This document shows, one piece after another, positions 649 to 9,001 of a stretch of DNA of 33,759 nucleotides. The notes below the pieces were generated by a model. It did no database searches, was not told the DNA's origin, and saw only the letters and a program-made list of their open reading frames with translations. This DNA is from a virus. The translations under genes were made by a program, and so were the position numbers. Position 1 is the first letter of the stretch, and the number at the start of each line of letters is the position of its first letter. The DNA lies in the IMG/VR virus record IMGVR_UViG_3300025282_000132, positions 1 to 33,759 of that record; one strand, written 5' to 3'.

Positions 649-1302
649 TTATATTTTCTGTATCATCATAGTTGGAAAGTGGAAGCTGAAGTCACCATTA
701 AAAGGTGAGTTTGTTATAAACTTGCGTACAGCATTAGCTATAAAACTACCACTCATATTTGCGCAGTAACTTGTAGCTTTAGCATTGCATGGTTCTTCAT
801 CTCCTTCTGCATCTGAGTACCACACCTTTTGATACTTCTTAAGCGTTGGTTTACTTATAAAGTATTGTTGATAGTGTTCAGCACCCATCCTTCCATCTAT
901 GATGCATTCTGGTTTTGTAGTAGGGTTAGAGCATATAGTTGTGACCGCCTCCAATCGCGATCCCATGGAATCAAACCCAATGATTACTATATCCTTCTGA
1001 TCTTGAAAGTAGAACTCATCAAATTCTCCTGTATGTTCATCTACTATACAGTTAGGTTCAATGCTAAGCAAGTGCCCCTTTAATGCTTGCGTTTTATATT
1101 TATCAATATCGCTTTGTGTATACTGTGATACACCAATATTGACATCTTCTACTTTGTCACGATCATACAGATGAAAGCTCATAGCCCCCATTCTAACCAG
1201 TTGTGTTGCTGCGGAACTCCCAATAGCTCCGCAGCCAAGTATATGGAATGTATATTGACCAGTCCCTTCAAAGAGACCTTCTGATCTAGCTGTAATACTC
1301 AT
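649..1302 (-). CDS. E1/ThiF/MoeB-type adenylyltransferase (ubiquitin-like activating enzyme)
   Basis: 217 residues, a compact single-domain E1-like protein. Visible: the nucleotide-binding loop GCGAIGSS (23-30) in a Rossmann beta-alpha-beta, YDRD (46-49) after the second strand, N55 and Q60 and K68/K70 in the region that contacts ATP, and GFDSMGSR (109-116), the family's D-x4-R-like motif. A C-terminal Cys-containing segment EEPCNAKATSYC (169-180) offers C172 or C180 as the thioester or acyl-acceptor cysteine. E1 proteins adenylate the C-terminal Gly of a beta-grasp protein. The start ATG overlaps the stop of the JAB gene (TAATG), so the two are translationally coupled. The Ubl partner is most likely the product of 7714-7968. 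The protein lacks the long E1 catalytic half-domain of eukaryotes, like other bacterial or phage ThiF proteins such as those of PRTRC systems. Confidence 0.85.
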   Translation of the reverse strand: MSITARSEGLFEGTGQYTFHILGCGAIGSSAATQLVRMGAMSFHLYDRDKVEDVNIGVSQYTQSDIDKYKTQALKGHLLSIEPNCIVDEHTGEFDEFYFQDQKDIVIIGFDSMGSRLEAVTTICSNPTTKPECIIDGRMGAEHYQQYFISKPTLKKYQKVWYSDAEGDEEPCNAKATSYCANMSGSFIANAVRKFITNSPFNGDFSFHFPTMMIQKI

Positions 1303-2234
1303 TAATACACCATTCCTTCGTACATATCATCATCCCACCAGTCATCAAGAGGATCATCATTATAACTTCCATATATATTCATACCAGAGGTTTTATACTC
1401 TACAAACTTATATGGAAATAAGTGTAATAACTTTTCCTTTTGATTTTCAGGAAGTAATCTTACCTGATATAAAGAATCTTCTTTCTTAAGTTCCTCATTC
1501 AGCTTTTCTATACCTTCCTTGTATAAAGGATAGCTAATAGTACCAGCTATAAGATCAGTATTAAGCTCATCTACATCCTCTATTACTTCATTGACATGTT
1601 TAGGCTTTTTTGTTAGCATAGCCTCACCTAAAGGAAGTCTTCTTTGATTATCATATTCTGGCCAACCATCAGCATAGGTAGTAGACTTTTTCATACTACC
1701 ATTGTACATATGTGTTGGTCTAGTATATGTAAAAGGTTTCTCTTTAGTACAAAGAGCTTCTACTTCTTTCTTTATAGCTTTGGTTACTTTAGTTTTGCCA
1801 TAAATAGTAAGCTCTTCATCTGAATGTACTTCAAATGGCTCCCATACAGAAACCCTAAATTTGTATTCTTCCTTCAGATTTACTACCAAAGCAAAAGAAA
1901 AGTCCCCTTCATTAAACTCATCTATAGCTTTTAGGTCAGTAGAAGACCAGAAAGCCTTCATAGTGTGATGACTATGCCACCAGCAAAATCTATACTCTTC
2001 ATCACCCATTATTTTAGCTGTCTTAGTATAATAGTTAGCTAATGCATCCTTATCTAATACTGTGTTACCTGTCGATATTTCCTGTTTTAGAATGACTGGT
2101 TTCTTTATCTCCCAATCACCATCTTTGTCTTTAACAACAACAGACATACCACCTATCTCGCTCTTTTCAGTTTCATAAGCGTGTTCAGAGTAGCCTATTA
2201 TCTTATTCCATGCATTATTTTGTATATAAAACAT
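1302..2234 (-). CDS. JAB/MPN (JAMM) metallopeptidase, deubiquitinase-like
   Basis: 310 residues; the start has AAAGGAG eight bases upstream. The N-terminal 150 residues carry a complete JAMM signature: E26 in SEIGGM, then H87-S-H89, seven residues, S97, two residues, D100. H87, H89 and D100 would bind zinc, and E26 activates water. The family hydrolyses isopeptide or peptide bonds after a ubiquitin-like Gly-Gly. The last about 150 residues match nothing I recognise and end in a strongly acidic, Trp/Asp-rich tail. It sits directly upstream of, and overlaps, the E1 gene, an arrangement known from bacterial and phage Ubl systems. The likely jobs are trimming the Ubl precursor to expose Gly-Gly and/or removing Ubl from targets. 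An alternative role, cysteine-donating JAB in sulfur transfer, cannot be excluded. Confidence 0.88.
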   Translation of the reverse strand: MFYIQNNAWNKIIGYSEHAYETEKSEIGGMSVVVKDKDGDWEIKKPVILKQEISTGNTVLDKDALANYYTKTAKIMGDEEYRFCWWHSHHTMKAFWSSTDLKAIDEFNEGDFSFALVVNLKEEYKFRVSVWEPFEVHSDEELTIYGKTKVTKAIKKEVEALCTKEKPFTYTRPTHMYNGSMKKSTTYADGWPEYDNQRRLPLGEAMLTKKPKHVNEVIEDVDELNTDLIAGTISYPLYKEGIEKLNEELKKEDSLYQVRLLPENQKEKLLHLFPYKFVEYKTSGMNIYGSYNDDPLDDWWDDDMYEGMVY

Positions 2235-2248
2235 TTCATCTCCTTTAG

Positions 2249-2968
2249 TTAATCGTTTTTTTGTTCTTTATTTTCCCTTACCATTTCATATAAAGCATTC
2301 TCTATAAATGCCTGTACAATCTTCTGTACTAAGTCATCTGGAATATGTAAAGATAAAGAACCATCACCTTCTTCTTCGCACTCTATTTTATGGCATGTTC
2401 TATAATGTTCATCACACCACCACATATTGTTTCTTCGGCTTGTGGCAATTTCTCTACAACCAATATTAACACAGTAAACCATTATATGTTCATCTTTAGC
2501 CCTATCTTGGGCTTCATCTTGGGCTTGTATCGTTTTGTTGGTGTCAACAATACGTTCATCTTCTACCATTTTGTCAACGTCAGCAATTGCGCCTAATAGC
2601 TTACGACCATCATGAAAGTGTTCCTCACACCACCATGCATTCTTAATTCGGGCAACAGCAAGTTGCCCACAATCCATTTTAGCACAGTAAGGTTTTACAA
2701 ATCTATCTTGGGCACCTTCTTCTTCGCACTTATGGTCTAATTGTGGGATACAATCAAGTGGCTTATCCCAAGCATTTGTCATATCCTTATAATCAGGATA
2801 ATTAAAATCTCTAACTGATGTTACAGTACCCCTTCTCTCGCAATAATCACACTTACCATTCCAGTATGTAACTGGAAATTCGTGTGGAGTACCAAGTTTT
2901 GTCCCACAATCTCCACATATATCACAAGTTTCTATTTGTGGCTCATTTGCTTTCTTTTTGTGGCTCAT
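2249..2968 (-). CDS. Cys-rich multi-zinc-finger protein with duplicated finger
   Basis: 239 residues. The N-terminal part has C15-x2-C18-x2-C21 and C40-x2-C43, a treble-clef or zinc-ribbon-like cluster. Two copies of a second finger follow: C95-x4-C100 ... WWC114-x2-H117 and C166-x4-C171 ... WWC185-x2-H188. They are joined by an acidic, Gln/Asp-rich linker (about 130-162) and followed by a C-terminal helix. The ATG overlaps the preceding stop (ATGA), with only a weak SD. It lies 14 bases ahead of the JAB gene and belongs to the same leftward operon. Function is unknown; zinc-binding E3-like adaptors are one possibility given the neighbours, and DNA or RNA binding is another. I do not recognise the family. 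Confidence 0.75.
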   Translation of the reverse strand: MSHKKKANEPQIETCDICGDCGTKLGTPHEFPVTYWNGKCDYCERRGTVTSVRDFNYPDYKDMTNAWDKPLDCIPQLDHKCEEEGAQDRFVKPYCAKMDCGQLAVARIKNAWWCEEHFHDGRKLLGAIADVDKMVEDERIVDTNKTIQAQDEAQDRAKDEHIMVYCVNIGCREIATSRRNNMWWCDEHYRTCHKIECEEEGDGSLSLHIPDDLVQKIVQAFIENALYEMVRENKEQKND

Positions 2969-3165
2969 TTCTTACTCACTTTCTTTAATGAGCAATATTC
3001 TGTATCGAAATCCTCTATTGCTACTACATACCCACATTCGTGGGTAAGTTCTGACACTATTGTCTCTAATCTGTCTATTCTACTTGACAGTTTCTTGACG
3101 TGTTCTTTGGTTGTTTTATTACTTCCTGCTTCCCATAAATGGTATCTTCTTCCAAACATTCTCAT
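2965..3165 (-). CDS. Small hypothetical protein with coiled-coil segment
   Basis: 66 residues, starting MRMFGRRYHLW. The start is supported by AAGGAG five bases upstream, and the ATG overlaps the stop of the preceding gene (ATGA). Residues about 20-42 form a heptad-like helix (EHVKKLSSRIDRLETIVSEL). Two cysteines are present but no finger. It is part of a chain of overlapping small leftward genes leading into the zinc-finger/JAB/E1 set. Function unknown. Confidence 0.65.
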   Translation of the reverse strand: MRMFGRRYHLWEAGSNKTTKEHVKKLSSRIDRLETIVSELTHECGYVVAIEDFDTEYCSLKKVSKK

Positions 3166-3353
3166 AGCATCTCCTTTTTATTAAATTCCCACATAAAATC
3201 TTCAGGTTCGTTTTCAGTGATGTTCTTTTTGATAAAGTCAAGACAAGCATCCGTGCTTTCAAATCTTAAAACCTCTCCATCGTCATCCAACAAATATTCA
3301 TTACCATTGAGGCTTACTCCCTCTATTGGTCTGCCTATACAATATTCTTTCAT
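3162..3353 (-). CDS. Small hypothetical protein
   Basis: 63 residues, acidic, with a beta-rich N-terminal half (EGVSLNGNEYLLDDDGEVLRF) followed by a helix. AAGGAG lies seven bases before the ATG, and the stop overlaps the next ATG. No recognisable family. Its place in the tightly coupled leftward operon and its clean SD are the evidence that it is real. Confidence 0.6.
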   Translation of the reverse strand: MKEYCIGRPIEGVSLNGNEYLLDDDGEVLRFESTDACLDFIKKNITENEPEDFMWEFNKKEML

Positions 3354-3384
3354 TTTATTTCTCCTTTATTTCTTGTTTTATCCA

Positions 3385-3639
3385 TCATTCATCTCCTTTC
3401 AACGCTAAAATCAGCATTTTTACAGAGCCAACTGTTTTGTACGAATATGTACTTGGCACAAATTCAATATCTACCTCTACTTCAGTTCCACCGACATAAG
3501 AATATAATTCAACTCCATTGATAGTTAATTCGTACCTATTAACTGTGTCAAAAGATTTCCTAAACCCAAACTCCTTCAATGTTTCATCTGTGAGGAGTCT
3601 ATCTTCATCGTCTATATCAACTCCAAATGTTGTACCCAT
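3385..3639 (-). CDS. Small hypothetical protein, beta-rich
   Basis: 84 residues from ATG 3639 (MGTTFGVD...). A longer reading would need a TTG at 3663 without SD, whereas the ATG is preceded by AAAAGAGAAAGA, a variant of the SD used throughout this cluster. The start lies inside the end of the upstream zinc-ribbon gene (28-base overlap). Predicted mostly beta strands (RYELTINGVELYSYVGG, VEVDIEFVPSTYSY). Function unknown. Confidence 0.6.
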   Translation of the reverse strand: MGTTFGVDIDDEDRLLTDETLKEFGFRKSFDTVNRYELTINGVELYSYVGGTEVEVDIEFVPSTYSYKTVGSVKMLILALKGDE

Positions 3640-3788
3640 TCTTTCTCTTTTATTGGTTTGCAATATGCTTTTTTTCCTGTTGTATCACAGCGACTTAAAT
3701 AACCTCTTTTAAACATAAGGATTTTACTTTCTTTTAGCCTCATATCTCTTACAAATATATTATTACAATGTGGGCAAAGGAATTTCAT
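3612..3788 (-). CDS. Small zinc-ribbon-like protein
   Basis: 58 residues, MKFLCPHCNN..., found by reading the strand because it is below usual length cut-offs. C5-x2-C8 and C34-x8-C43 form a possible zinc knuckle pair. The start has the cluster's standard AAAGGAGAAAGA directly upstream. The 3' end overlaps the next gene's start by 28 bases, and its own ATG overlaps the end of the gene before it. Function unknown. Confidence 0.6.
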   Translation of the reverse strand: MKFLCPHCNNIFVRDMRLKESKILMFKRGYLSRCDTTGKKAYCKPIKEKEWVQHLELI

Positions 3789-3922
3789 TCTTTCTCCTTT
3801 AACTCTATAATTGAAGTATTTAAACTATTAATAGCCTCTTTCAATGTATCTGATAAAAGCCCTTTTCCATTCCAGACTACAATAACTGTACCTGATTCAA
3901 GTTCTTCTATTTTCTTCACCAT
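3785..3922 (-). CDS. Small hypothetical protein (45 aa)
   Basis: 45 residues, MVKKIEELESGTVIVVWNGK..., ending LKEKE. It is preceded by GGAGAAAGA. The last codons (Lys-Glu-Lys-Glu-stop) are the SD of the next gene read in frame, so the two genes are physically interlocked. A beta strand (TVIVVWNGKG) precedes an amphipathic helix. No family recognised. Confidence 0.55.
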   Translation of the reverse strand: MVKKIEELESGTVIVVWNGKGLLSDTLKEAINSLNTSIIELKEKE

Positions 3923-4107
3923 TCTTTCTCCAATCTTAACTGTAAGGCAATAATATATGTACCCATAGCCCTTATCTGTATCTCCAAAAGATGCTTTTCT
4001 CTTGTTGGTAGAGTTGCATATTCTCCTGAATCAAGAAATGCTGAAAGTTTAGAATATTTTTCTTGCATATCTTCAAGTTCAATGTTTAGTTTTTCTATGT
4101 TTTTCAT
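3916..4107 (-). CDS. Small coiled-coil protein
   Basis: 63 residues, almost entirely helical: an N-terminal heptad run (IEKLNIELEDMQEKYSKLSA) and a second helix from about residue 34. It is preceded by AAAGGAGAAAGAATA before the ATG, the same ribosome binding signal as its neighbours. It lies directly downstream of the tRNA-Tyr gene and overlaps the next start. Function unknown. Confidence 0.6.
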   Translation of the reverse strand: MKNIEKLNIELEDMQEKYSKLSAFLDSGEYATLPTREKHLLEIQIRAMGTYIIALQLRLEKEW

Positions 4108-4129
4108 TATTCTTTCTCCTTTGTTATTG

Positions 4130-4213
4130 TGGGTAGAGATGGATTTGCACCAACGAACTCCTAAGAGGACAGTTTTACAGACTGTCTGCTTTAGCTAACT
4201 TGCATATCTACCC
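4130..4213 (-). tRNA. tRNA-Tyr (anticodon GTA)
   Basis: 84 nt with a seven-base-pair acceptor (GGGTAGA with TCTACCC), discriminator A, and an anticodon arm ACAGT-CTGTAAA-ACTGT giving anticodon GTA. The variable arm is long (CCTCTTAGGAG), as expected for bacterial tRNA-Tyr, and the T-loop is TGCAAAT with one mismatch in its stem. CCA is not encoded (the next bases are CAA), so it must be added by the host. The gene sits between two copies of the small-gene SD signal, where a protein gene would be expected. Confidence 0.93.
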
Positions 4214-4220
4214 ATAAATT

Positions 4221-4373
4221 TCATTCTTTCTCCTTTAATAATGCTTTGATTGGCTCAATATATTCATTCTGCTGATGGGAGTATTCCCAAGGTTCTAAGA
4301 TATTAATCATCCATAAACCAATCCATATTGCTAATCTTTGCCTTAATGTGAACATTTTAATTTCTACTTTCAT
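4221..4373 (-). CDS. Small hypothetical protein (50 aa), Trp-rich helix
   Basis: 50 residues, MKVEIKMFTLRQRLAIWIGL..., with a hydrophobic, Trp-rich stretch (about 14-29) that could be a short membrane segment or a buried helix, then a polar C terminus ending LLKEKE. It has AAAGGAGAAAGA upstream. Its final codons are again an SD, but the ATG after it opens only a nine-codon frame that runs into tRNA-Tyr. Function unknown. Confidence 0.55.
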   Translation of the reverse strand: MKVEIKMFTLRQRLAIWIGLWMINILEPWEYSHQQNEYIEPIKALLKEKE

Positions 4374-4383
4374 TCTTTCTCCT

Positions 4384-4533
4384 TTATTGTTTCTTTCTTT
4401 TTGGAAAAATCTCCCACAGATCTTGTAAAACTTGATTTATGGCATTTTCTGTTATTTCGTAACTGCTATAAATATCACAGTAATTTTTTATAACTGCTAT
4501 TTCAAACAGTTGGTTTTTAAGATTTCTTGTCAT
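4384..4533 (-). CDS. Small hypothetical protein (49 aa)
   Basis: 49 residues, MTRNLKNQLFEIAVIKNYCD..., predicted helical, ending in a basic PKRKKQ tail. The SD is AAGGAGAAAGAG just before the ATG, inside the end of the preceding gene (17-base overlap). No family recognised. Confidence 0.55.
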   Translation of the reverse strand: MTRNLKNQLFEIAVIKNYCDIYSSYEITENAINQVLQDLWEIFPKRKKQ

Positions 4534-4804
4534 TCTCTTTCTCCTTGAATTTTAGGGCAAATGAAGTTAATTCTCCTTCAAGTTTTGTACTGTCTGTCGT
4601 AACAAGACAATCACTCTGCCCCAATTCTTCTAACCAAAGTTTTACAAGTTTTGCTTTTGGAAAATGGTCATGTCCAGTATTCTTTTTAGATAGTTCATAA
4701 TAGTATCCATCTTCAATATATACTCTATATTCATTTCTATAATCTTTTATGTGTTTAATACTTGCAACATTTATATAACTGTTATGTGTTGTTTGAATAA
4801 TCAT
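4517..4804 (-). CDS. Hypothetical protein (95 aa), beta-rich N-terminal half
   Basis: 95 residues. The first half reads as antiparallel strands (YINVASIKHIKDY, EYRVYIEDGYYYEL), similar in feel to small LytTR-like or SH3-like folds but without a diagnostic motif. The second half is helical and ends KFKEKENDKKS. AAGGAGAAAGAAA precedes the ATG. It is the first gene after the structured RNA region, so its 5' leader may derive from that RNA. Confidence 0.6.
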   Translation of the reverse strand: MIIQTTHNSYINVASIKHIKDYRNEYRVYIEDGYYYELSKKNTGHDHFPKAKLVKLWLEELGQSDCLVTTDSTKLEGELTSFALKFKEKENDKKS

Positions 4805-4845
4805 TTTCTTTCTCCTTATAAACTGTCGTTAATTACTATTAGTTT

Positions 4846-5140
4846 TTAGCAAGGATGTGGTCTGTCACCCCCACATCTCTCGTTTATGTAACGAGGTTCT
4901 TTCATCAACTTACATTAGTAAGTGAGCATTTGTTATAGGCATGAAGCCATTTAAACAAGTGGACATTTGAAGTAATCCTTGCTATCACTTGCTATTGGTA
5001 CAAAGTACCGACCTGTGCAATTACAATTCCGTCTATAGCCACATCACCCACCTGTTAATGCCTTATACTCGTAAGCATAAGCACCCTAACATACGTCTTG
5101 GTGGACGCAGTGTTGTCACTGTATAGACGGAATTGTCAAC
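4846..5140 (-). ncRNA. Candidate structured non-coding RNA of about 300 nt
   Basis: No credible gene lies in 4805-5165, but the minus strand folds strongly. A perfect 15-bp stem ACAATTCCGTCTATA / its complement (5135-5121 with 5037-5023) encloses hairpin CAGTG-ACAA-CACTG and a nested irregular stem (CCACC/GGTGG, TGTTA/TAACA, CTTAT/ATAAG). A hairpin GGTAC-TTT-GTACC follows. A perfect 10-bp stem TAGCAAGGAT/ATCCTTGCTA then closes a second domain with hairpins GGC-TTCAT-GCC, ACTTAC-TAAT-GTAAGT, CTCGTT-ACATA-AACGAG and GATGTGG/CCACATC. I do not recognise tmRNA, RNase P RNA or 6S signatures. The strand is inferred from neighbouring leftward tRNA and genes. Confidence 0.6.
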
Positions 5141-5165
5141 TCTAGAAGGTTGATATTGGCATTTG

Positions 5166-5324
5166 TCAACCCTGATCAAATCCGCCAAATATATCTGTCA
5201 TTCCCTTTGGCAGTTCGGTTTTCTGATTATAACAATCAGTACAGGTGGCATAGAATGGTTTAATCCTGCCTTTGTTTAGTTCTAGTACCACTTTATCACA
5301 TTTAATACACTTTATTTTTCTCAT
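5166..5324 (-). CDS. Small zinc-ribbon protein (52 aa)
   Basis: 52 residues with C6-x2-C9 and C28-x2-C31, a textbook four-cysteine zinc ribbon spaced by 18 residues, then a short acidic tail. No good SD precedes the ATG (ACTATATTTAGA), unlike its neighbours, so translation may be weak or differently controlled. It lies between the tRNA-Met gene and the structured RNA. Similar small ribbons are common in phages; the role is unknown. Confidence 0.6.
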   Translation of the reverse strand: MRKIKCIKCDKVVLELNKGRIKPFYATCTDCYNQKTELPKGMTDIFGGFDQG

Positions 5325-5363
5325 TCTAAATATAGTAAGTTATCATTTTTGTTAATTTATTGT

Positions 5364-5436
5364 TGCGGGCACAGGAGTCGAACCTGCTATCTCCAGGATA
5401 TGAACCTGGCGGTGATTATCCGTTTCACTCGCCCGC
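5364..5436 (-). tRNA. tRNA-Met (anticodon CAT; Ile-CAU not excluded)
   Basis: 73 nt. Acceptor GCGGGC(G) pairs with (T)GCCCGC, D-stem is GTGA/TCAC, anticodon arm CCAGG-TTCATAT-CCTGG gives CAT, and T-arm is GCAGG-TTCGACT-CCTGT; discriminator A, no encoded CCA. It lacks the three G-C pairs of the initiator anticodon stem, so it is an elongator tRNA-Met or, if its C34 is modified to lysidine, a tRNA-Ile. Confidence 0.9.
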
Positions 5437-5481
5437 TAAACCTTCTTGTTCGCTCTTGGTACAAGAATAGACCATAGGAAG

Positions 5482-5544
5482 GGGGAGAGCTAACTAGGCC
5501 GTCCCATGCCAACTTAAGTAGCACCTAGCGTAAGCGCCCTCCCC
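5482..5544 (-). ncRNA. Small folded RNA element after the E2-like gene
   Basis: Five bases after the stop of the 677-aa gene the minus strand contains GGGGAG ... CTCCCC closing a 63-nt element. Inside are hairpin GCG-CTTA-CGC and a second stem CTAGG/CCTAG. No U-tract follows, so it is not a standard terminator. It may be an mRNA 3' end stabiliser, a processing element ahead of tRNA-Met, or an independent small RNA. Confidence 0.35.
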
Positions 5545-5548
5545 AATT

Positions 5549-7582
5549 CTAAAGATTCTGTGTACCACCTCCCATTTGTGTGGCCCACCTTAATACTCTT
5601 TGTTCATGAGTCAAATCATCATCATCTTCAACTTCATTACGAGGAAGGTTATCCCCAGATCCTACTGTATCTTGAAATCCTTCATCAAGTGTGAAACCTC
5701 GAAGAACATCTGCTGTAGTTCTTGTAGGAAATACATCATCTACAGAAGAAGGAGGATTGTCTGAAACTTCTTCTCCCCTTTCCTCTATGCGTGCTTCCTG
5801 TCTATTTTTAGCACCATTAAGTGAAACTCCGTCTAATGTATCAAGTATGAATTTCCTAGTAATGTTATACTTTTTGATATTCTCAAATATCCTTTTGTGT
5901 ACCAGTTCAAGGTTCATAGCATTGTGATATCTACCCATAGTATGAATGATAAACTGAGTAGTCTCCAAAACATCAAAGTCATCATTATCTCCATATTTTT
6001 CATACTCAGATGCAAATGCTAAGTCTGCCAATCTTTGCCATAAATAGAGATTATAAGTCTTATCTACTGTCCGGTAAAATTGAAACTGCTTCATATCTTC
6101 TATATAAACCTCTGGATATCTATTAACTTCAACTCCTTCTGCAGCCTGTCTTATATCACCAATTGTCTCAAACAAAGTAGAAAATTCAAGATTGTTACCA
6201 AGTATAGCTTCTGTTTCTGGTAACATCTCATCATCTCCATATATCTGTTTCATAACATCATAAGCATAGCAATCATCCTGAAATGTACATTCAACACAAG
6301 GAAAGTCTTCTATTTTAACATGATTAATATATTGTACTTGCCTTTCTTCTTGCACTGTACGTGGATAAGAGTTTCTACTTCTAGATGAAGTTTGACTATA
6401 GCCTGCTAATGCATTATGTAAATATTGTAGAAATTTACAATCACCAACACTATTTAAGTTACCACAAGTATAATAATTATCATTATCACTTGGTTGTATG
6501 TTACTAACATGTTCATTATTTCCCATACTTTTTAACATCCTAAAGTTGGCTAAAGGATTAGTTTGAGGTATATAATAAGTATATAACCATGTCTTAATGT
6601 GTGTAATATGAGCTGATAGCTGCATATTTAACAAAGTACTAGACAGTTCACCACTCATGTTACCTCTACATATATGTTGGAAATGAAAGTCATCTATACC
6701 ATCTAGTTCCATTTTATACTTATCATGAGTTTCACCTATATATGGATGTCTATTTAGAAGCATGTTATCAAAGAATAAACAACCAATAGCAAAGCTTAAT
6801 CCATTTCTATTAGCTATAACATCACCATCTCTTTTCCATAGATTGGCTAATAAAGTGAATAAATGAACACCTGTATATACCATAAGTACATTGTTTGTAG
6901 GTATAAGGTCTTCTTTCACTTTAGTACTTCCTTCATCATCAAAACATATCTGTTGTACAAACATTGTCTCATTGGTAAAAATTGTTTTAAAGATAAGCAT
7001 AAAGTTAACAGAGGTAGGACTATCTACATCTACTACATTAAGATAGCCTGAAGAACCATTACCATTATACCCTCTTGAGTTAGTAGTTCTAGTCATACCT
7101 GCAACGTATGGCTCTATAGTAACATCAGGATAAAGCTTATTAATAGTTGCAATTTCTTTATCTATGCGTTCTAACAGTTTACCATACTCCTCTTCTAGGT
7201 CTTCAGTATTATCTTGCCAACCTATACCAAGTGTTTTGATATTTCTTATCTGCATCTCTAGTTCAAGAGTTTGTTGTTTAAAGTGACGATATCTCCATTG
7301 AAACCTGCCTATCCTATCAAAAATAGAATGTAAACCCCTGGGTTTCATATCCCAACGTAAGACATTCCTACCATAAGCTTTCTTTATATCATTATAAGCA
7401 CCAGGTTTAAAGTTAAACTGTCTATTTAACTGTAAATTAGTACCATAAGTATTGTTATAACTTTCTAGTGATCGTAATAGATCTCCTTGTGGACCTATAT
7501 GGATATTGTCTACTAACTGTTTTAAGTCAACTACAAAATCTTTTAAGGGAACCATGTGTCCTTCTAAGTCTTTCATGTTCAT
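5549..7582 (-). CDS. Large protein with putative E2 (UBC/RWD-like) conjugating domain
   Basis: 677 residues from ATG 7582, which has GGAG eight bases upstream; a longer reading would need TTG 7621. The N-terminal 150 residues are helical (a coiled coil about 95-150). The middle has strands (VNFMLIFKTIF, about 192-202; TMFVQQICF, about 206-214), then NRHPYIGE (277-284), and about 20 residues later FQHICRGNMSG (301-311) followed by two helices. The order HP(H/Y)hx...hCxGN with a following helix resembles bacterial and phage E2-like proteins, making C305 the candidate thioester cysteine. A Cys cluster (C429, C432, C438) may bind metal. The C terminus is acidic and ends near GGG. It shares an operon with the Ubl gene just upstream and E1/JAB downstream. 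The E2 assignment is pattern-based; a purely structural or DNA-metabolism role remains possible. Confidence 0.5.
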   Translation of the reverse strand: MNMKDLEGHMVPLKDFVVDLKQLVDNIHIGPQGDLLRSLESYNNTYGTNLQLNRQFNFKPGAYNDIKKAYGRNVLRWDMKPRGLHSIFDRIGRFQWRYRHFKQQTLELEMQIRNIKTLGIGWQDNTEDLEEEYGKLLERIDKEIATINKLYPDVTIEPYVAGMTRTTNSRGYNGNGSSGYLNVVDVDSPTSVNFMLIFKTIFTNETMFVQQICFDDEGSTKVKEDLIPTNNVLMVYTGVHLFTLLANLWKRDGDVIANRNGLSFAIGCLFFDNMLLNRHPYIGETHDKYKMELDGIDDFHFQHICRGNMSGELSSTLLNMQLSAHITHIKTWLYTYYIPQTNPLANFRMLKSMGNNEHVSNIQPSDNDNYYTCGNLNSVGDCKFLQYLHNALAGYSQTSSRSRNSYPRTVQEERQVQYINHVKIEDFPCVECTFQDDCYAYDVMKQIYGDDEMLPETEAILGNNLEFSTLFETIGDIRQAAEGVEVNRYPEVYIEDMKQFQFYRTVDKTYNLYLWQRLADLAFASEYEKYGDNDDFDVLETTQFIIHTMGRYHNAMNLELVHKRIFENIKKYNITRKFILDTLDGVSLNGAKNRQEARIEERGEEVSDNPPSSVDDVFPTRTTADVLRGFTLDEGFQDTVGSGDNLPRNEVEDDDDLTHEQRVLRWATQMGGGTQNL

Positions 7583-7601
7583 AGTTTTATCTCCAATGAT
7601 A

Positions 7602-7678
7602 GACATAGGGGATGATGACAATTCTTTTAGCTTGCATTGCGAAGTTTCTCAAGAGCATTGACCACTCATCCCCATGTC
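7602..7678 (-). promoter_or_regulatory. Leader hairpin ahead of the E2-like gene
   Basis: In the 131-base gap between the Ubl stop and the E2-like start, the minus-strand arms GACAT-GGGGATGA (7678-7666) and TCATCCCC-T-ATGTC (7615-7602) pair over 13 base pairs with one bulge, enclosing about 50 bases. The hairpin ends about 20 bases before ATG 7582. It could tune translation of the E2-like gene relative to the Ubl gene or act in mRNA processing. Confidence 0.4.
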
Positions 7679-7713
7679 TGGTTATTTATGTACCCTAACT
7701 TTTAGGATATTAC

Positions 7714-7968
7714 CTACACTATTGGTTCAAGTGTAATGGTAAAGCGTACCTTAAAGTTAAGTGTTTCTAATCCACCTGTTTTGTTGCTGCTAACTGCTGC
7801 TACAATGTCACCATCTTGCAGTTCATAGTTATCAGTAACTCCACGTCCATTGACAGCTACGGTTGCATTTGCAGCTATATCTAGCTCTTCTCGCAATGCA
7901 CCTACATTAGCGCTGTTGACTTCTCGTTCGGGGAATCCACCCCCACTAAGTACTTTAATATTAGGCAT
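7714..7968 (-). CDS. ThiS/MoaD/ubiquitin-like beta-grasp protein with internal Gly-Gly
   Basis: 84 residues. The core reads as a ThiS-type beta-grasp: strand 1 (MPNIKVLSG), strand 2 (PEREVNS), the helix ANVGALREELDI, TVAVNGRGV, and the family-typical LQDGDIVAAVS (50-60). Gly65-Gly66 follow at the position where ThiS, MoaD and ubiquitin end. Here they are followed by 18 further residues (LETLNFKVRFTITLEPIV), so the Gly-Gly carboxylate would have to be exposed by a peptidase; the JAB protein at 1302-2234 is the obvious candidate. AAGGAGG precedes the ATG, which abuts the upstream stop. Family knowledge: Gly-Gly is adenylated by an E1 (649-1302). PRTRC-type small Ubls are the closest analogy I can name. 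Confidence 0.78.
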   Translation of the reverse strand: MPNIKVLSGGGFPEREVNSANVGALREELDIAANATVAVNGRGVTDNYELQDGDIVAAVSSNKTGGLETLNFKVRFTITLEPIV

Positions 7969-8530: not shown

Positions 8531-9001
8531 CTACTCGCTATCCACACTCGGATAATTACAATCAAGGACCTTGTGGCTAGCATCTCCCAGACCATCACCA
8601 TCGACATCTCTGTACCAAGTGATCATGCCTTGTCCATCGCATTGTCCACAAATGTCCCATTCATTAGAGTAGCAGTTATCGTCTATGTCATCAGAGTTTC
8701 TGACCCATTGACTAGCTACTATGATACTCCCTTGTAGGTTGGTAGTATATTCACTACCCTTCCACCAGAATGTATGACCTTCACCATGAGCTCGGTATTG
8801 TATCTCAAAAGCATCTTCGAATGACATATCATCGAGATTGAGTTCAACATATGTCCATTCTGCATCTTTAGGGTACTTATAACCTTCTAAGGTATTAGGT
8901 GTTACAACAGTGTTGGTTATCTTCGGAGTAGTTTCTCCTCCCCCTTCAGCACTATCACACCCGATCACTAGTATCATTATTGCTATCACAATGATTCTCA
9001 T
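8531..9001 (-). CDS. Putative phage-encoded lipoprotein with thrombospondin-3-like Asp-rich segment
   Basis: 156 residues. MRIIVIAIMILVIGC is a short lipoprotein signal peptide; the lipobox VIGC places the lipidated cysteine at residue 15, followed by DSAEGGGETT, a flexible acidic linker. The C-terminal part has CYSNEWDICGQCDGQG and DVDGDGLGD (about 116-139). This matches the Asp-Gly-Cys calcium-binding style of thrombospondin type 3 repeats, common in exported bacterial proteins but unusual on a phage early arm. GGAGG lies upstream. A surface lipoprotein made early could exclude superinfecting phages or alter the host envelope; this is inference. Its 5' end overlaps the preceding gene by 47 bases. 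Confidence 0.7.
   Translation of the reverse strand: MRIIVIAIMILVIGCDSAEGGGETTPKITNTVVTPNTLEGYKYPKDAEWTYVELNLDDMSFEDAFEIQYRAHGEGHTFWWKGSEYTTNLQGSIIVASQWVRNSDDIDDNCYSNEWDICGQCDGQGMITWYRDVDGDGLGDASHKVLDCNYPSVDSE

Follow-up and report, generated by a model that had tools for sequence, protein, structure and literature searches.

Does a marine tailed phage carry a ubiquitin-like conjugation pathway of its own? The question is raised by a 33,759-nucleotide stretch of DNA, the whole of which is referred to here as the window (IMG/VR virus record IMGVR_UViG_3300025282_000132). An earlier inspection of its letters, hereafter the sequence-only reading, had proposed that it encodes a ubiquitin-like modifier (Ubl), an activating enzyme (E1), a conjugating-enzyme (E2)-like protein of 677 amino acids, a JAB peptidase and a zinc-finger protein. 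All five open reading frames (ORFs) are present where that reading placed them, and all lie on the minus strand (Table 1). The 33.8-kb contig belongs to a tailed marine bacterial virus distant from cultured phages; Pfam identifies a small terminase, a P22-type portal and an SU10-type capsid protein, and the large terminase is 25% identical to podovirus terminases. Our analysis shows that the Ubl, E2-like, JAB and E1 genes form one linked phage module, which probably specifies a reversible ubiquitin-like protein conjugation system.

The identities of three of the proteins were borne out. The E1 matches Pfam ThiF (3.6e-17, 62.7 bits against a cut-off of 28.1), its best NCBIfam match is ThiF PRK08644, and the GCGAIG motif was confirmed. 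Cys172 and the adenylation residues are invariant among relatives; E. coli ThiF and MoeB share G23, G25, D47, D49, N55, K70, D111, R116 and Cys172 with the phage protein, the last aligning on the conserved Cys of both. A GxGxxG nucleotide-binding domain and a candidate catalytic Cys place it in the E1/ThiF superfamily, and a profile search of the PDB matched eukaryotic UBA6 and UBA5, MccB, the bacterial conjugation E1s Cap2 and BubCD, and ThiF. The JAB and E1 genes share one base, where the JAB stop codon meets the E1 start. On its own the window JAB falls under the 25-bit cut-off for Pfam Prok-JAB (2.3e-4, 21.4 bits), and 20/22 members of its family match. The JAMM metalloprotease site (E...HxHx7SxxD) is intact, with E26, H87, H89, S97 and D100 invariant in 22 relatives, and the structures closest to the family profile are archaeal and eukaryotic Rpn11 (6.6e-6).

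The Ubl scores just below the Pfam ThiS cut-off of 22.5 bits (22.4 bits, 1.9e-4). An AlphaFold2 (AF2) model built from 26 relatives, with a predicted local distance difference test score (pLDDT) of 74.6, has the topology beta-beta-alpha-beta-beta. Foldseek matched it in the PDB chiefly to ThiS, MoaD, archaeal ubiquitin, SUMO and NEDD8 (best E 1.2e-3, probability 1.0). This comparison is the ground for the fold assignment, because a profile search of PDB sequences was headed by repeat artefacts of WD-40 designs, with MoaD at 0.5-0.8. The beta-grasp body ends in the invariant G65-G66 that had been proposed. An iterative search seeded by the window Ubl alone recovered the Ubl in 40 loci, and a motif of the N-K-x-G-G type ends the body in 40/40. 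The GG is followed by nothing in 11, by 1-3 residues in 19 and by longer, unrelated tails in the rest. Between the window and locus L024, 60/66 body residues are identical while the tails differ, and the ratio of nonsynonymous to synonymous substitution rates (dN/dS) in the body is about 0.13, showing purifying selection. A retained GG, varying tails and a low dN/dS are what marks a modifier that acts through its GG end.

A pattern scan of viral contigs gave 416 with E1 relatives, and the best 80 of these 416 were fetched for locus analysis. The IMG/VR relatives carry a compact operon in the order Ubl-E2-JAB-E1 on a single strand. Where upstream sequence suffices, the JAB is present in 72/72 contigs, the E2-like gene in 55/55 and the Ubl in 36/36; the genes were found apart from one another in no contig with enough sequence. 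Within the searched neighbourhood these were the only four families found at 30/30 loci, always on one strand; the profiles of the linkage test were built partly from the very loci tested. Each of the 12 long contigs of relatives (50-58 kb) carries one E1, with no stops in it. The remark that the genes do not form a compact cassette is thus true of the window genome alone, where 3.3 kb separates the E2-like gene from the JAB gene, against a gap of -26 to +151 nucleotides in 39 relatives. This insertion holds the zinc-finger protein, small ORFs, a tRNA-Tyr gene and a tRNA-Met gene. The zinc-finger ORF exists, but it does not belong to the pathway as had been suggested: no relative was found in the fetched loci beyond near-identical contigs, and we rejected it as an E3 or other module component.

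Does the module extend beyond this marine lineage? E1 relatives were found in 77/50,697 phage records, most of them from crAss-like phages (Steigviridae) or phages of Flavobacterium. Near the primase of crAss001 (gp79-gp78-gp77-gp76) and FpV4 (gp53-gp52-gp51-gp50), Ubl-like, E2-like, JAB and E1 genes follow one another in that order and are annotated as hypothetical, metalloprotease or thiamine biosynthesis proteins. Other Steigviridae keep this order too; the block is also present in cultured DAC15, and crAss001 comes from the human gut. The E1 and JAB are clearly homologous by sequence to their crAss001 and Flavobacterium phage counterparts (E1 about 30% identical; JAB 1.1e-9). The Ubl and E2-like genes probably correspond as well, by position and motif and with less certainty. 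The crAss/Flavobacterium E2-like proteins have YMHSH...C-x-G in common, and in their Ubl-like proteins a shared KxxKSG precedes a long extension; the profile comparison of the marine and crAss/Flavobacterium Ubl-like families was not significant. A link between the marine and crAss E2 core profiles was also discarded: the best alignment placed Cys on Cys at p 0.07, and a reversed control gave 0.24. In 393 genomes the bacterial E2 families yielded no locus for PF14460 and two for PF14461, too few for a profile test. In the crAss-type Ubl-like proteins (L013:5241-5918 and relatives) the extension after KSG is at least 100 amino acids long and ends in a conserved EIDxMF stretch; such a domain would either need cleavage or work uncleaved.

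A scan of genome contigs for bacterial chromosomal relatives gave a single match, a crAss-like fragment in a Spirochaetia metagenome-assembled genome, and with the patterns used the subfamily appears to be viral. The contig of that fragment (L108) carries crAss001-like phage sequence and is probably mis-binned.

What, then, is the 677-amino-acid protein? It contains the HPY and ICRG (HPYI...C-x-G) that had suggested an E2. Across 40 sequences the consensus is [HFY]P[YF][IV]...C-x-[GDS]...W...P, with P293, C318, W345 and P356 among the fully conserved columns; the P and C of the motif are present in all, and the H in most. Identity to the window copy is mostly 15-30%, making this the fastest-diverging gene of the module. 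The short member L082 reads HPYIAVRGYDYGSVCLDKY at the motif, which we take to be close to eukaryotic HPNI...GSICLD. Among 809 ORFs of at least 100 amino acids in the loci the pattern matched this gene only (shuffled rate 0.00025), a scan that measures specificity only, the pattern having been written from the same family. The full-length AF2 model, of moderate confidence (mean pLDDT 67), consists of a long helix, a 5-6-strand meander, the HPY, the Cys and two helices, a predicted topology compatible with a divergent UBC fold. The E2 assignment rests on motif, operon position and this coarse topology, and with these we are fairly confident that the protein acts as an E2; the earlier assignment holds to that extent, and the lack of a UBC match in Foldseek tells partly against it.

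Table 1. Features of the module and its surroundings (window coordinates unless a locus is named).
Feature	Position	Strand	Description	Basis
E1	649..1302	-	single ThiF-type adenylation domain, 217 amino acids	Pfam ThiF
E1 Cys172	codon 787-789		candidate catalytic Cys	alignment with ThiF, MoeB
JAB	1302..2234	-	JAB/JAMM metalloprotease, 310 amino acids, C-terminal extension	Prok-JAB and Rpn11 profile matches
JAMM residues			E26, H87-S-H89, S97, D100	
Insertion	2235..5548	-	lineage-specific, between E2 and JAB, outside core module	gap comparison, 39 relatives
Zinc-finger-like protein	2249-2968	-		two tandem CxxxxC...WWCxxH repeats
tRNA-Tyr and tRNA-Met genes	4129-4213 and 5364-5436		inside insertion	
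E2-like protein	5549..7582	-	677 amino acids (690 if TTG at 7621 is the start)	motif, AF2 topology
E2-like HPY	about 6740-6748			
E2-like C318	codon 6668-6670		candidate catalytic Cys (690-amino-acid numbering)	
E2-like Cys cluster and tail			zinc-like Cys395/442/445/451; conserved C-terminal tail of EERxxxWAxxxG type	
Ubl	7714..7968	-	84-amino-acid ThiS/ubiquitin-fold modifier	ThiS Pfam, AF2 model, fold matches
Ubl K-T-G-G end	GG codons 7771-7776		end of residues 1-66	
Ubl tail	7717-7770		18 amino acids, non-conserved	
crAss001 gp79-gp76	L013:5241-9651		probable Ubl-E2-JAB-E1 block	
FpV4 gp53-gp50	L015:4610-8621		probable Ubl-E2-JAB-E1 block	

What the analysis establishes is the genes, their intact catalytic residues, their strict linkage and order, the purifying selection on the Ubl and the tie of E1 and JAB to crAss001 and Flavobacterium phages; how the enzymes react, whether the large protein serves as an E2 and what is tagged are inferred. 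By analogy with the ThiF/E1 family, the E1 would adenylate the C-terminal Gly66 of the Ubl with ATP and take the Ubl onto Cys172. The large E2-like protein would then receive the charged Ubl on its Cys318 and hand it on to a lysine or other nucleophile of a target. The JAB, given its intact Rpn11-type JAMM site, may trim the tail after the GG where there is one and strip the Ubl from targets; deconjugation and recycling would be its more general role because 11/40 Ubls already end at the GG.

Several points weigh against this conjugation pathway. A conserved Cys does follow the HP, but Y replaces the N of HPN and the HP-to-Cys spacing, at least 14 residues, is longer than in classical E2s. Foldseek of the full-length E2-like model against the PDB gave chance matches and no UBC match, and the fold search otherwise returned uncharacterised viral homologues. 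The protein matches no Pfam family, no E2 is among the PDB profile matches of its family, and the full-length profile comparison of the marine and crAss E2-like families was not significant. The E1 leaves no room for the ubiquitin-fold domain that would recruit an E2, the nearest proteins by sequence to the Ubl and E1 are ThiS and ThiF, and the overlap of profiles and loci in the linkage test counts here too.

ThiS and ThiF function in sulfur transfer, and the JAB Mec+ releases product for CysO. The module could accordingly be a sulfur-carrier pathway in which a ThiS/MoaD/CysO-type Ubl is converted by the E1 to an acyl-adenylate or thiocarboxylate, the 677-amino-acid protein accepts sulfur through its invariant Cys to modify a metabolite, tRNA or nucleotide, and the JAB releases the product. 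ThiS is the sole Pfam family of the Ubl and, with other sulfur carriers, tops its fold matches; the best NCBIfam match of the E1 and the tRNA genes nearby in the window genome fit this as well. However, no sulfur gene (rhodanese, cysteine desulfurase or any other) is conserved in the neighbourhood, where the conserved genes are those for an ERF protein, an AAA_24 ATPase and a DnaB-type helicase. Moreover, the JAB is closest to Rpn11, and the 677-amino-acid protein has an E2-like HP...C-x-G and fits no enzyme family. We therefore consider a sulfur-carrier role unlikely.

Alternatively, the Ubl might be conjugated without a true E2, the E1 modifying targets directly or via the adenylate and the 677-amino-acid protein being a substrate, scaffold or target selector whose invariant Cys and Cys cluster are structural. 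The lack of a UBC match for the model, the conserved Cys395/442/445/451, which suggest metal binding, and the rapid divergence, as a target adaptor might show, speak for this. Yet besides C445 the only Cys present in all 40 sequences follows the HP motif in an E2-typical C-x-[GDS], and an analogous H...C-x-G protein occupies the same operon place in crAss/Flavobacterium phages, so that we regard this as quite improbable. Least probable is counter-defence, in which the phage Ubl, E1 and JAB would act on host Ubl defences (CBASS Cap2/Cap3, Bil, Bub) by stripping host conjugates or by decoy-conjugating immune proteins: CBASS and Bub have E1s related to the phage one and bacterial hosts do turn Ubl conjugation on phages (PMC10097602, PMC11153139), but a lone JAB or decoy would do, yet every relative keeps the full set, and in a constant place in the replication module, not among variable accessory genes.

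If the module is a conjugation system, what does it modify? Downstream of the E1 lie an ERF (Pfam 5.9e-20) or AAA_24/Sak4-type protein, a putative single-stranded-DNA-binding (SSB)-like protein and then a DnaB-type protein with predicted helicase-primase functions. The FpV4 block is surrounded by Sak4, primase, uracil-DNA glycosylase and exonuclease genes, and the crAss001 block by genes for a replicative helicase, primase, uracil-DNA glycosylase, resolvase and exonuclease; each of the three lineages (marine, crAss001-type and Flavobacterium phages) thus has the module among its replication and recombination genes. The recombination gene beside the E1 alternates between ERF and two AAA_24/Sak4-like types (L037, L060, L083), but the Ubl module itself does not change. 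An acidic-PF tip resembling that of the neighbouring SSB-like proteins ends 6/40 E2s, 0/66 JABs and 1/321 minus-strand ORFs, a pattern noticed post hoc, in E2s that are not phylogenetically independent. The constant position by the recombinase, SSB-like and helicase-primase genes and the SSB-like tips favour phage replication and recombination proteins as targets, without proving it; we rate this slightly below an even chance. The fuller proposal is that several far-apart lineages of tailed phages, crAss001 among them, retain Ubl-E2-JAB-E1 as a core block that reversibly tags replication and recombination proteins through a new E2 family with a zinc-like cluster of its own; it is tentative and rather unlikely as a whole. 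Were it true, such tagging of recombinase, SSB and helicase-primase would give viruses of prokaryotes an equivalent of the control that SUMO and ubiquitin exert on replication forks.

The module was also compared with known systems. The PRTRC cassette, reportedly operon type 6d in the 2006 scheme of Iyer and colleagues, comprises the Ubl PRTRC_C, the E2-like PRTRC_B, the JAB PRTRC_A and a ThiF. Like the phage module it is carried on mobile DNA and has small separate genes for a Ubl, an E2-like protein, a JAB and an E1, and its models show weak sub-threshold similarity to the phage E1 and JAB. Membership was rejected on NCBIfam scores (ThiF 20.5 bits against 144.75; PRTRC_A 14.3 against 101.8; no match for B or C); the phage module differs in lacking PRTRC accessory genes, in its unrecognised E2 core, in its invariant Ubl GG and in its replication-module site.

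BilABCD, an ISG15-like anti-phage system, encodes a Ubl, E1, E2 and JAB together. Its E1, BilD, is a two-domain pseudodimer (PMC11354881), unlike the single 217-amino-acid domain of the phage E1, and the phage rather than the host owns the set; BilD does not feature in the top 25 PADLOC matches for the window E1, its model matches the crAss001 E1 only at 1.1e-5, and membership was excluded. The E1s of type II CBASS (Cap2, 1e-8 to 3e-8) and BubCD (7e-6) are related in PDB profile searches, and the PADLOC E1-E2 model matches the phage E1 at 4.4e-13. However, type II CBASS has the E1-E2 fusion Cap2, the JAB Cap3 and a nucleotidyl transferase (CD-NTase); in the phages the E1 and E2 are separate, and neither a nucleotidyl transferase nor an effector is found in the four core families. 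ThiS-ThiF and MoaD-MoeB share the Ubl fold, the E1 domain and the Cys aligned with Cys172; unlike them, the phage set has E2-like and deubiquitinase-like JAB partners, no sulfur genes and an E1 without the C-terminal CxxC zinc site. Lambda and T1 phages encode a tail assembly Ubl (TAPI) and a JAB-NlpC (TAPK) (PMC1779556), again a Ubl and a JAB in a tailed phage, but these are tail genes without E1 or E2, and here the full set is in the replication region.

No earlier account of a phage that encodes all of Ubl, E1, E2 and JAB turned up in our literature search, which is weak evidence as the search covered open-licence papers only; the main text of a crAss survey (PMC7886860) does not mention ThiF or ubiquitin, nor does the crAss001 paper. 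Most of the bacterial Ubl systems that have been studied are defences of the host or cassettes on plasmids, and here viruses appear to own the pathway, which would make a full reversible tagging pathway a core phage gene block, more constant than the adjacent recombinase gene. Protein tagging of this kind may serve viruses in copying their own DNA or in acting against the host, and since crAss001, DAC15 and FpV4 are cultured, the role is open to direct test.

Lastly, two minor observations concern the ends of the module. The C-termini of the E2-like proteins (5552-5600 in the window; L030, L037, L058) carry either an EERxxxWAxxxG-like motif or an acidic-PF tip, possibly docking sites; a GG near this C-terminus was considered as a second modifier site and dismissed, most relatives having the conserved EERxxxWAxxxG-like tail and no GG. 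Positions 8531-9001 encode a 156-amino-acid lipoprotein-like protein with a signal sequence ending in GC and a DVDGDGLGD motif; in L007-L009 and L105 its relatives sit upstream of the Ubl.

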